DNA from: Kiritimatiellia bacterium | GTDB lineage: Bacteria; Verrucomicrobiota; Kiritimatiellia; RFP12; UBA1067 | NCBI GenBank assembly: GCA_017463935.1 | Contig: JAFUEM010000037.1 | Coordinates: forward strand, 1 to 33,681 | DNA length: 33,681 nt | Direction: 5' to 3' | Part shown: one piece after another, positions 154 through 21,376 of the stretch | Layout of the letters: every line of letters starts with the position of its first letter | Position numbering within the stretch: position 1 is the stretch's first letter | Notes under the pieces: model-generated | Told to the model about the DNA's origin: nothing | Database searches by the model: none | The model's input: the letters and a program-made list of their open reading frames with translations, nothing else | Position numbers and translations under genes: made by a program

Positions 154-403
154 CTAGACCGCGCGGCAAAGCCGCGCTATTCTAGGGCAGCTAGACCGCG
201 CGCGATGCGCGCTGTTCTAGACCGTTCGCTTCGCTCACTGTTCTAGACCGTGCGGCAGAACTGCCGCGCTATTCTAGAAGTCTAGGTTTCTAGAAGTCTA
301 GAATTCTAGATGTCTAGGATTCTAGAAGCCTAGAAGCCTAGATGAGCCCGCGCGAGCGGGCGGTCTAGCGCAGCGAGCAAAGCGAGCGGTCTAGCCCCTC
401 TAG
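154..403. repeat. CTAG array 1: 8-bp phased units plus longer hairpin units
   Basis: This non-coding stretch contains 17 CTAG tetramers in 250 bp. From 274 to 341 nine CTAGs recur at exactly 8 bp (274, 282, 290, 298, 306, 314, 322, 330, 338), with variable inner tetramers such as AAGT, AATT and AAGC. On both sides the CTAGs are 26-31 bp apart and enclose small GC-rich inverted repeats: GCGCGGC/GCCGCGC near 160-177, GCGGCAG/CTGCCGC near 252-267, GCCCGC/GCGGGC near 346-361. Several longer units start CTAGACCG. The array sits between the MATE transporter 3' end and the promoter of the left-edge gene. Two further 8-bp arrays occur at 5857-5924 and 18579-18670. No function is known to me. Confidence 0.85.
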
Positions 404-5856: not shown

Positions 5857-5924
5857 CTAGAAGTCTAGACGTCTAGAATCCTAGAATCCTAGAATCCTAG
5901 AGGCCTAGACTTCTAGACTCCTAG
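5857..5924. repeat. CTAG array 2: nine 8-bp units
   Basis: CTAG recurs at exactly 8-bp steps at 5857, 5865, 5873, 5881, 5889, 5897, 5905, 5913 and 5921. The inner tetramers are AAGT, ACGT, AATC, AATC, AATC, AGGC, ACTT and ACTC, so the commonest unit is CTAGAATC. Because 8 is not a multiple of 3 and TAG is read on both strands, the array holds stop codons in all six frames. The queH stop codon (5905-5907) is one of them. Confidence 0.9.
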
Positions 5925-6510
5925 AAGCCTCGCCTTCTCGCTTCTTCTTCGGCTTCGGCGGGCGGATCGAAAATTCGCAGCCGCAGAACTTCTGGCGGTA
6001 CAGCCCCAGTTCCGTGCTGCGCGCCATCGACTTCGCAAAGCCGTCGTGCTTCTTGAAATTCTCCTCCAGGAACTTCGGCGCGCCCGGCTCGTACGGCAGA
6101 AGCCCCGCCTCGCGGAAGATGACCTTCGTGTCCTTGTGCGGCGAGACGGTCAGCGTCGTCGTGAACGCCTCGATGCCCATCTCCTTCGCAAACTGCATCG
6201 TCTTGCCGAGGCTGTAGCGGAAGCACTTCGCGCACCGCTCGCCGCGCTCGGGCTCGTTCTCCAGCCCCGCCGCCACCTCGCGCAGCCACTCCTCGTGGTC
6301 GTACTTGAGCGCGACGAGCTTCACGCCCTCCGCGTCCGCGACCTTCTGCGCCTCGACGAGGCGGCGCATGAACTCCTGCTTCGAGTCGATGTTGGAGTTC
6401 GCGAAGAACATCACGACGTCGTGGCCGAGTTCCTTCAGCCGCGGCACGCACGACGACGAGCACGGCCCGCAGCAGGTATGGAGCGCAACGGTCATGGCGG
6501 CGGCGGACAT
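5905..6510 (-). CDS. queH: Epoxyqueuosine reductase QueH
   Basis: This 201-residue protein of the QueH (formerly DUF208) family performs the last step of queuosine synthesis in tRNA, reducing epoxyqueuosine to queuosine in the cytoplasm. Family cysteine motifs are visible: LHTCCGPCSS near residue 10, ERCAKCFRYSL mid-protein, and KFCGCEFS near the C-terminus. These supply the ligands of the iron-sulfur cluster and metal site. The start at 6510 is chosen because its ATG overlaps the upstream stop (TGATG). MTVALHTCC, five codons later, is an alternative. A longer open frame upstream is shadow of the nitroreductase gene. The lysine/arginine-rich tail (PPKPKKKREGEASRS) ends inside CTAG array 2, so the last few residues come from repeat DNA. 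Confidence 0.92.
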   Translation of the reverse strand: MSAAAMTVALHTCCGPCSSSCVPRLKELGHDVVMFFANSNIDSKQEFMRRLVEAQKVADAEGVKLVALKYDHEEWLREVAAGLENEPERGERCAKCFRYSLGKTMQFAKEMGIEAFTTTLTVSPHKDTKVIFREAGLLPYEPGAPKFLEENFKKHDGFAKSMARSTELGLYRQKFCGCEFSIRPPKPKKKREGEASRSLEV

Positions 6511-18538: not shown

Positions 18539-18578
18539 CTGTTATTTTTGAGGTTTAGAAGTTTGGAATCTGAGGAGT

Positions 18579-18670
18579 CTAGGAGTCTAGAAGTCTAGAA
18601 TCCTAGAAGTCTAGAATCCTAGAATCCTAGAAGCCTAGAAGTCTAGAATCCTAGAATCCTAGAAACCTAG
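18579..18670. repeat. CTAG array 3: twelve 8-bp units
   Basis: CTAG recurs at exact 8-bp steps from 18579 to 18667 (twelve copies). The inner tetramers are nearly all AAGT, AATC or AAGC, so it is the most regular of the three arrays. It lies in the divergent intergenic region between the sialidase operon and mnmG, next to the coding-strand switch. Just left of it (about 18550-18575) more degenerate copies (TTTAGAAGTTTGGAATC) suggest decay at the edge. Confidence 0.92.
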
Positions 18671-18967
18671 GCTCCCGCAGCCGATGCGCTGACGATCTCT
18701 TATGGAAAGTTGATACAGCCCCTCATTATTGATACTTATCGCAAAATTGTTGATAACTCTTTGACAACTGTTGACATAAGATTACATTTTTCCTATTGAC
18801 AAAACAGCCGCCCGGCGTTGAAACCCCCTTTTTATTGGGTTTTGAGCAATAATGACACAGAGACATGTCGCATAATACTCTTCTTTTCATTGTTTACAAA
18901 TCCGTTGATAATTTGGTATAATAATCTTGTCAGGGTTGGACAAAACGAATTGAGAGACACAACACCA
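18671..18967. other. Candidate replication-origin region at the coding-strand switch
   Basis: This is a 297-nt AT-richer non-coding stretch between divergent transcription units. It contains TGTTGATAA (18748-18756) and CGTTGATAA (18903-18911), which are reverse complements of TTATCAACA/TTATCAACG, and TGTTGACAT (18769-18777). All supported genes to the left run leftward and all to the right run rightward, as expected if forks depart from here. No canonical TTATCCACA box is seen here. The assignment is inference; the AT-rich cluster at 26217-26325 is a competing candidate. Confidence 0.45.
18893..18922 (+). promoter_or_regulatory. mnmG: mnmG promoter, overlapped by a DnaA-like box
   Basis: TTTACA (18893-18898), an 18-nt spacer, then TATAAT (18917-18922) with an extended TGG just upstream. 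A GTTGATAA element (18903-18911) lies in the spacer, so its binding protein would compete with RNA polymerase. Confidence 0.6.
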
Positions 18968-21376
18968 ATGAGCAACAATCTATATGACGTGATTGTGGTC
19001 GGCGGCGGCCATGCCGGGTGCGAAGCCGCCCTCGCCGCCGCGCGGATGGGCGCACGCACCCTTCTTGTGACCGCCCAGACAGCCGCCATCGCGCGAATGC
19101 CGTGCAATCCGTCGATCGGCGGCCTCGCCAAGAGCCACCTCGTCTACGAACTCGACGCGCTGGGCGGTGAAATGGGCCGAAATGCCGACGCGACGGCGCT
19201 GCAGGTCAAGACGCTGAACCTCTCGCGCGGCCCGGCCGTGCGGGCGACGCGCGCGCAGTGCGCCAAGCGGGAATACGCCGCACGGATGCAGGCGGTCATC
19301 GCCCGCCAGCCGAATCTGACCGTGCTTGAAGATGCCGTCATCGGCATCGAGACGGAAGGCGATACACATAATTTAAACGGCGAAAATTCCTCCTTTTCAC
19401 CCGCGAGCAATTCAGTCGATTCGATCACCTCGTTTCCATCGAGTTCCTGCGAAAGCCCAACAACAAACCCATCAAGCCCATCTCGCGCCCCTCTGACCGC
19501 CCGTGCGACGGGCGTTTGGACCGAAAAGAACGGTCTGATTGCAGCAAAAACCGTTGTCATCACCTCGGGGACGACGCTACGCGGGCGTATTTGGATTGGA
19601 AAAGAGTCCTCGGAAAGCGGCGGCGACGGTCGCCCGGCTGTCAATCAACTGTCAGCGTGTCTTGAACGCCTTGGTTTCGACCTGATCCGCCTGAAAACGG
19701 GTACGCCGCCCCGTTTGAAGGCTTCCAGCTGCGATTTTACCAAGTGTCAGCGGCAGGATGGCGAATTTCCGCGTCCACTGTTCCACGTGGAACACGCCGA
19801 AACCATTGTTCCACGTGGAACAAATCAATCGGCTCCAACAACAGAGGCTGATTCACAATCGACGCCGCAATCTGATTTGGACAGTCAACCGGATGCAATT
19901 GTTCCACGTGGAACAATTCATGGTTCGGATGTGGCAGTGAATGATCATTGTACACGCCCGAACACTGTTTCAACCGCATTGGACAGTTCAGATATTCCAC
20001 GTGGAACAATCGGTGAAGCCGCCGTGCAACCAGACAACGGGAACGCAACTTTAAGTGTATCCAAGGCAGAAAATCTCATTGTTCCACGTGGAACAATCGG
20101 TGAATCCGCCGTGCAACCAGACAATGAGAACGCAGCTTTAAGTGTATCCAAGGCAGAAAATCTCATTGTTCCACGTGGAACAATCGGTGAAGCCTCCGTG
20201 CAACCAGCCAACGAGAACGCAGCTTTAAGTGTGCCCACGGAAACCAAGACAGCAAATCCTACTGTTCCACGTGGAACATTGGGTGAATTTCCGTGCTGGA
20301 TGACGCACACAACGCCGGAAACGCACCAAATCATCCGCGAAAATCTCGACCGTTCGGCCCTCTACGGCGGGGCAATCCATGGTACGGGCGTGCGCTATTG
20401 CCCGTCCATCGAGGATAAAATTGTCCGCTTTGCCGACGCGCAGCAGCACCATGTGATGCTGGAGCCAGAGGATTCGGCCGGCACCATCATCTATCCGAAC
20501 GGTTTGAGTTGTTCCTTTCCGCGCGACGTACAGGAACGGATGGTACATTCCGTTCCGGGACTCGAACATGCCGAATTTCTTGCGTATGCGTATGCGATTG
20601 AATATGACGGCATTGACGCGCGAGAACTCACGCACGCCCTCGAAGCGAAGCGGATTGACGGACTCTTCTTTGCCGGTCAGATCAACGGCACGACCGGCTA
20701 CGAAGAAGCGGCCGCCCAAGGGTTGATGGCCGGGATCAATGCGGCGCTGCGGACGCAAGGACGGCCGCCGCTCGTCTTGAGCCGCCAGGATGCCTATATC
20801 GGCGTCATGATTGATGATCTCGTCACGAAAGGCACGGATGAACCGTATCGCATGTTTACGAGCCGCGCCGAGCGCCGGTTGCTGCTGCGGCAGGACAATG
20901 CGCGCTTTCGGCTCGTCGAGGCGGCCGATAGAGCAGGAATTGTCGGAAAAGACAAGATTGCAGCCACGCGCGCGGTGAAAGCGTGGCTGGAACAGGTTGA
21001 AAAAGAGAAAAGAGAGATCGAGAGTCTGCTGAATGCGCACGAAGAGATATTGAAACATGATAACTGTGAGATCAGCCGATGGTTCAGCGCGGCGGAGATT
21101 CTTGAAGAAGAGAAGATTATACGACATTATGCACCCTATCTCGAACAGGAGGAAAAAGCGGCCAATCGCGCCAAACAGGACGAAAACATCAAGATTCCGC
21201 GTTGGCTCGACTATGCGCGCTGCACAGCCGTGCGCTTCGAGAGCCGCGAGAAGCTGAAAAAGTACCGCCCGGAGACGCTGGCGCAGGCCGCACGCATCCC
21301 CGGCGTCAATCCGGCTGACATCGCCGTCTTGGCTGTCATCATCAAACGCGGCCATTTTCCCGTTATCAACAAATGA
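18968..21376 (+). CDS. mnmG: MnmG tRNA uridine-34 modification enzyme with parS-bearing insert
   Basis: MnmG (GidA), with MnmE, installs the aminomethyl-type group on wobble uridine 34 of tRNAs, using FAD and methylene-tetrahydrofolate. The protein is 802 residues, versus about 620-630 for the family. The FAD motif GGGHAG is at 12-17. Catalytic cysteines are kept: MPCNPSIGG (Cys46) and YCPSIEDK (Cys478, equivalent to Cys277 in E. coli). [15 protein letters not shown] and the C-terminal helical domain ([11 protein letters not shown]) are intact, so the enzyme is probably active. Extra length comes from a Ser-rich insert (about 130-180) and a large one (about 271-437) carrying seven parS-like palindromes. 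The start at 18968 matches the family N-terminus; the in-frame ATG at 18818 is rejected because the promoter lies after it. dnaA follows by 94 nt. Confidence 0.95.
19779..20278. repeat. Cluster of seven parS-like centromere sites inside mnmG
   Basis: The palindrome TGTTCCACGTGGAACA occurs perfectly at 19779-19794, 19807-19822, 19900-19915, 20080-20095, 20167-20182 and 20263-20278. It occurs once with one mismatch (TATTCCACGTGGAACA) at 19993-20008. This is the known form of chromosomal parS, the ParB-binding site (family consensus TGTTNCACGTGNAACA). Start-to-start spacings are 28, 93, 93, 87, 87 and 96 bp. The last five are multiples of three, so those sites are all read as (V/I)PRGT, while the first is read as FHVE. 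No other copy was seen in the window. ParA and ParB genes are not in the window. Confidence 0.93.
19994..20254 (+). repeat. 87-bp (29-codon) tandem repeat carrying parS
   Basis: Three tandem units begin at 19994, 20081 and 20168, each starting with the parS core and encoding (I/V)PRGTIGE, then a segment like [13 protein letters not shown] and SKAENL. Units one and two are nearly identical. Unit three keeps about 65 bp and then diverges. The unit length is an exact multiple of three, so copy number can change without breaking mnmG. Confidence 0.85.

Follow-up and report, generated by a model that had tools for sequence, protein, structure and literature searches.

CTAG-built intergenic arrays in a Kiritimatiellia genome look like an undescribed family of spreading modular repeats

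Three CTAG arrays in the window (the whole 33,681-nt stretch of DNA analysed, from a Kiritimatiellia bacterium) look like members of an undescribed family of spreading CTAG-built repeats rather than a known regulatory element, because related bacteria carry the same kind of array with different spacing. We tentatively favour the reading that they are a lineage-expanding modular repeat, in which the CTAG palindrome serves as punctuation and modules move CTAG-to-CTAG to new intergenic sites; the repeat is probably without a dedicated function for the cell.

All three arrays are (CTAGNNNN)n runs, with 9, 9 and 12 CTAGs (Table 1), and every one holds the exact 8-bp register claimed for it in the original prediction. 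CTAG is normally a rare word in many bacterial genomes. The window contains 40 copies: 30 in the three runs, eight bounding hairpins beside the first run (at 154–246 and 365–403) and only two elsewhere (28886 and 30430). The 12-copy array separates a BNR-repeat gene (−) from the divergently oriented mnmG (+) and extends leftwards in the same phase to ~18556, with flanks resembling this extension also found at other arrays. All three sites had been described as intergenic, which is not purely so for the 5857 array, as the queH (−) frame runs 20 bp into it before stopping and one CTAG of the array supplies the queH TAG stop (5905–5907). It had also been stated that only the inner tetramer varies, mostly between AATC, AAGT and AAGC; the core is indeed near-invariant, but GATT, ACTT, GTTT, GAGT and AATT are also present among the spacers. 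Array edges fade in phase into units with CTCG/CGAG, TTAG or TTGG cores. The outer unit adjoining an array has a CTCG/CGAG core ~14 times in 64, far more often than chance would give (e.g. 5929–5940 in the window).

Table 1 CTAG arrays, adjoining modules and parS-like sites in the window.
Feature	Position	Strand	Details
Four CTAG-bounded hairpin modules and one 5-nt spacer	154..273	-	22–27 nt; AATA/AACA-hairpin-GGT on the - strand
9-CTAG array	274..341	.	Flanked on both sides by sets of CTAG-delimited hairpin modules
Two CTAG-bounded hairpin modules, opposite-facing	342..403	+	ATGA-GCCCGC gcga GCGGGC-GGT; CGCA-GCGAGC aaa GCGAGC-GGT
9-CTAG array	5857..5924	.	Last 20 bp shared with the end of queH (-)
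In-phase degenerate edge	5925..5942	.	CTCG cores (CTAG aagc CTCG cctt CTCG)
In-phase degenerate continuation of the 18579 array	18556..18578	.	Cores TTAG, TTGG, TGAG; GARGTTTG-type units
12-CTAG array	18579..18670	.	Exact 8-bp register; every spacer in the AATC/AAGT orientation class
parS-like sites	19779-20278		Within mnmG (18968-21376 +); six perfect TGTTCCACGTGGAACA and one near-perfect (19995)

The window's genome (G000) is a metagenome-assembled genome (MAG) of 2.79 Mb in 354 contigs, 85% complete; MAG data were used throughout, with one genome per species. Across G000, four CTAGs at 8-bp steps gave 215 matches and the reversed control pattern none, while the array-bearing contigs examined (307 kb) contain 38 runs of at least three copies, with 265 spacers. 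Register is kept, with 271 of the 279 CTAG neighbours that are 8 or 9 bp apart sitting at exactly 8. Except for one CGGT case, independent arrays of any other tetramer (at least five copies, varied spacers, periods 6–12) are absent from the 307 kb. Mismatch between adjacent units is 0.9, 1.7, 2.2 and 0% at the four core positions versus 25, 46, 50 and 35% at the four spacer positions, and interior unit cores are CTAG in 227 cases and another word in five. This constancy of CTAG is far beyond drift. The dispersal of paralogous copies (below) agrees with the original suggestion that the arrays look actively spread.

Nine words (AATC, AAGT, ACTC, AAAC, AAAT, AATT, AAGC, AATA and AGGC) and their reverse complements make up 234 of the 265 spacers (88%). 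The first spacer base is R in 261 of 265 and the last is Y in 255 of 265, so that the effective core is YCTAGR. Both spacer orientations are mixed in 28 of 33 arrays, with 73 switches of orientation compared to 74.1 in shuffled order; a slight reverse-before-forward excess (P 0.02–0.07) is weak and without explanation. At one locus (L178) higher-order 24-bp repeats, (GAGT GATT GATT)n, show block duplication. Separate 8-bp GARGTTTG arrays are also present in G000 (C2, C46, C63, C118, C147 and C312), and some of these turn stepwise into CTAG arrays with the phase kept (TTGG, then TTAG, then CTAG).

Some arrays are adjoined by CTAG-bounded modules of 22–27 nt with the structure CTAG-NNNA-stem-loop-stem-GGT-CTAG, in which stems are perfect (GCCCGC gtga GCGGGC) or carry tandem G.A mismatches (GCGAGC nnn GCGAGC), and modules on the two sides of an array face each other. 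To the right of the first window array, the two hairpins are followed by a closing CTAG cccct CTAG. All 29 intergenic hairpin modules of this type that were found touch CTAG, the CTAG-less matches being within genes. Paralogous copies at C16, C32 and C250 have 89–93% identity over 160–338 bp, and copies in the window, C225 and C98 have common hairpins with nine, three and three units, respectively, between them. Because dispersed copies share hairpins and differ in unit number, hairpin-array composites disperse and change by whole modules, and copy number varies in whole units between paralogous copies, as in a tandem repeat. Copy numbers drifting with no conservation of register had been named as grounds for refuting the original prediction; copy number does drift (3 vs 9 units), but register is retained.

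A home-made gene caller, which is rough, placed 37 of the 38 runs outside genes; it mis-assigns mnmG, and the true setting of the 18579 array is a divergent gap. Arrays typically sit within ~10 bp of the nearest gene 3′ end and no closer than 20 bp to a gene start, and nine genes, including queH at 5905, stop on an array CTAG. In tandem gaps, 15 of 17 arrays lie nearer to where the upstream gene ends than to where the downstream gene begins (tallied from the distances). Arrays also occupy divergent and convergent gaps, without a fixed gene context, and since they occur in divergent gaps too, the 3′-end bias is a tendency, not a rule.

Counts in related genomes revealed a patchy distribution within the genus, with many 8-bp arrays only in G026 (143) and G011 (15); most congeners have none by the 8-bp pattern, and G006 and G016 carry long 9-bp CTAG arrays. 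Three CTAGs in short steps were found in 93 of 289 genomes of the phylum, heavily in four families (f1, f4, f15 and f48). Array periods in relatives are 7, 8 or 9 bp, or mixed, each with its own spacer words, so that CTAG is the constant part; relatives also have arrays with other cores, which makes CTAG the commonest core and not the sole one. Among the matches listed from a scan of 85,000 species, degenerate arrays are present in MAGs of Kiritimatiellae, Victivallales, Lentisphaerae and Bacteroidales; Vibrio, Rhodobacteraceae, Shewanella and further groups have homogeneous CTAG octamers. The suggestion of a lineage-specific expanding repeat is thus borne out by dispersed paralogous copies, patchiness in the genus and sister species with other periods. 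Two further observations concern other words: a 9-bp array in G322 (L358 11375) has a palindromic CCGG core and variable AT-rich spacers, and 1265 matches to the reversed control pattern (GATC, short steps) in G134 (family f48; single 5.7-Mb contig) suggest that this genome holds GATC-based short-step repeats.

The parS-like sites in mnmG belong to an in-frame insert that carries 87-bp tandem repeats; dnaA (21471) and dnaN (23162) follow shortly downstream, and the six exact TGTTCCACGTGGAACA copies there are all that were found in G000. Exact copies are present in 25 of 34 genomes searched, one to six in each, and in the genomes checked they are in the mnmG region in variable number. In G006 (L207:1213-1450) mnmG has, between two parS-like sites, a 24-copy 9-bp CTAG array that is translated in-frame, so that the product carries a serine-rich low-complexity loop (SSxSSx). 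Between the 12-copy array and mnmG (18680–18967) the window is AT-rich, with repeated TTGTTGATAACTC-like, DnaA-box-like words, and this segment is possibly part of oriC.

The CTAG arrays resemble both REP/BIME elements and intergenic heptamer repeats, and lack the defining properties of each; no description of such arrays was found in the literature searched (most subscription journals are outside its coverage). REP/BIMEs are GTAG- or CGTC-tagged palindromes associated with RAYTs (PMC3733652, PMC3116915). The likeness lies in intergenic 22–27-bp hairpins with a tetranucleotide tag, in composites facing each other, and in a position near gene ends, often with donation of the TAG stop. However, the tag here is CTAG and stands on both sides, rather than GTAG/CGTC at one end, and no linked RAYT was found, although a RAYT gene could be missed because G000 is only 85% complete. 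The REP/BIME palindrome unit of 20–40 bp fits the hairpin modules, whereas most arrays here consist of 8-bp units only. Cyanobacterial STRRs are one kind of heptamer direct repeat. Other intergenic heptamers are TAACTGA in Beggiatoaceae (PMC4679880) and GGGNATC in Xanthomonas/Nostoc (PMC4692102). Like CTAG arrays, these form short-period arrays between genes in dozens to hundreds, with a patchy distribution among relatives, and show copy-number differences (of 7 nt there), stops in all frames and overlap with gene ends. Their units are near-identical, whereas here only four positions in eight are constant, adjacent spacers mismatch by 25–50% per base, the spacer vocabulary has two orientations and the period changes between sister species. 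Homogeneous CTAG octamers (Vibrio maerlii, Thalassobius, Shewanella) likewise have CTAG every 8 bp, but with one spacer per array and no hairpin modules seen in the arrays inspected.

A host function for the arrays is possible; the tests run gave it no support. Folding of the arrays is much stronger than that of dinucleotide shuffles (z −5 to −7) and arrays in tandem gaps favour the upstream 3′ end, as might be expected of a hairpin element acting in RNA or ssDNA at the 3′ ends of genes (a terminator or mRNA-stabilising element, like some REPs), yet we consider such an element quite improbable. Permuting the spacers leaves folding unchanged (mean z −0.25), random spacer flips fold better (+1.17), and exchanging the core for GATC, AGCT, GTAC or another GC2 palindrome does not alter the folding energy; the arrays fold well because any in-register palindromic core gives such folding, and selected hairpin folding was rejected. 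Orientation is inconsistent relative to the gene with the nearby 3′ end, and a strand-specific RNA role was rejected for this reason. Several arrays, including that at 18579, are in divergent promoters, an ordinary terminator-like sequence comes after the array at L186, and an Rfam scan of the window returned two tRNAs only. A role as an all-frame stop cassette was rejected, since 9-bp arrays do not cycle frames and that of G006 is translated within mnmG. Retention of the palindromic YCTAGR core while spacers drift, and the position of one array ~300 bp upstream of mnmG, near dnaA-dnaN, would suit a functional array bound by an architectural protein, regulator or methylase and selected for CTAG, which we regard as unlikely. 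Sister species have periods of 7 or 9 rather than 8, so that helical phasing is not kept and a single conserved protein lattice is disfavoured; most congeners lack the arrays by the 8-bp pattern, and the conservation of spacing and gene context in relatives expected of a transcription-factor array was not found. CTAG observed/expected outside arrays is 0.32 in array-rich and 0.37 in array-poor relatives (43 genomes, P 0.73), without the selective loss of isolated CTAGs expected of a restriction or modification target where arrays exist; an apparent link to extra depletion in small samples (0.14 vs 0.59) vanished with 43 genomes (~1.2 Mb). The protein-binding and modification-target explanations offered in the original prediction gain no support from these results. 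Phage origin was also rejected, just five of 2.9 million viral contigs matching, with near-homogeneous spacers.

An ordinary slippage microsatellite in which CTAG has no special role would be in keeping with the homogeneous octamers of Vibrio, Rhodobacteraceae and Shewanella and with the 24-bp block duplications in G000, but is very improbable given the heterogeneous spacers of G000, the coexistence of both orientations, the very unlike divergence rates of core and spacer, and the near-absence of arrays of any other core in the 307 kb. That the arrays are an assembly artefact, as was originally allowed for, is scarcely credible: they are often near contig ends in a MAG of many contigs, but are carried by many independently assembled species, and that of G006 lies in-frame inside mnmG. 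A CTAG-specific undescribed enzyme (HUH/Y1, DDE or a site-specific recombinase) that inserts and joins modules at CTAG, leaving CTAG as a 4-bp target duplication or a REP-style tetranucleotide tag, is a possibility we regard as doubtful. CTAG bounds modules of very unlike length and content and composite copies are dispersed; CTAG is also a frequent insertion-sequence target (PMC4687349), and GTAG-tagged REPs likewise donate TAG stops (PMC3733652). Y1_Tnp genes are present in G000 (three matches, two over the cut-off), but none of the three adjoins an array, their contig pieces holding 0, 3 and 6 scattered CTAGs, and Y1_Tnp is common in array-free relatives; RAYT origin was rejected on this mismatch of distributions. 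Modules of 4 nt also appear too short, as we know of no transposase substrate of that size, and CTAG depletion does not track arrays.

Under the favoured reading of a modular repeat, modules would be either 4-nt spacers (8-bp units) or 22–27-nt hairpins, gained, lost, inverted and carried as wholes. New copies may arise through slippage and strand or template switching between CTAG palindromes, at replication or repair. Breaks would fall at CTAG because it alone is common to every module in both strands, and a unit with a mutated CTAG would therefore no longer be copied. Purifying selection would leave arrays just downstream of stop codons, where they may be tolerated because TAG in every frame is harmless there. 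Against such module copying, the choice of CTAG over other GC2 palindromes is unaccounted for, folding energies being equal, and old arrays should carry more core mutations than are seen. A dedicated enzyme acting on CTAG would account for the same facts, and the CTAG requirement could come either from palindrome pairing in replication or from a CTAG-recognising enzyme. Conceivably, an undescribed cellular enzyme or replication-linked process uses CTAG as its joining site when it assembles, inverts and disperses CTAG-delimited modules down to 4 nt, and has done so repeatedly in several families of the phylum with lineage-specific module lengths.

Across species CTAG and change by whole modules are constant, while period, spacer and site vary, which fits a modular repeat copied and joined at CTAG. 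Short-period intergenic repeats are a poorly explained class, to which the arrays add a case whose core, spacer and period can be told apart through comparison; the arrays also offer a natural way to test which process acts on CTAG.
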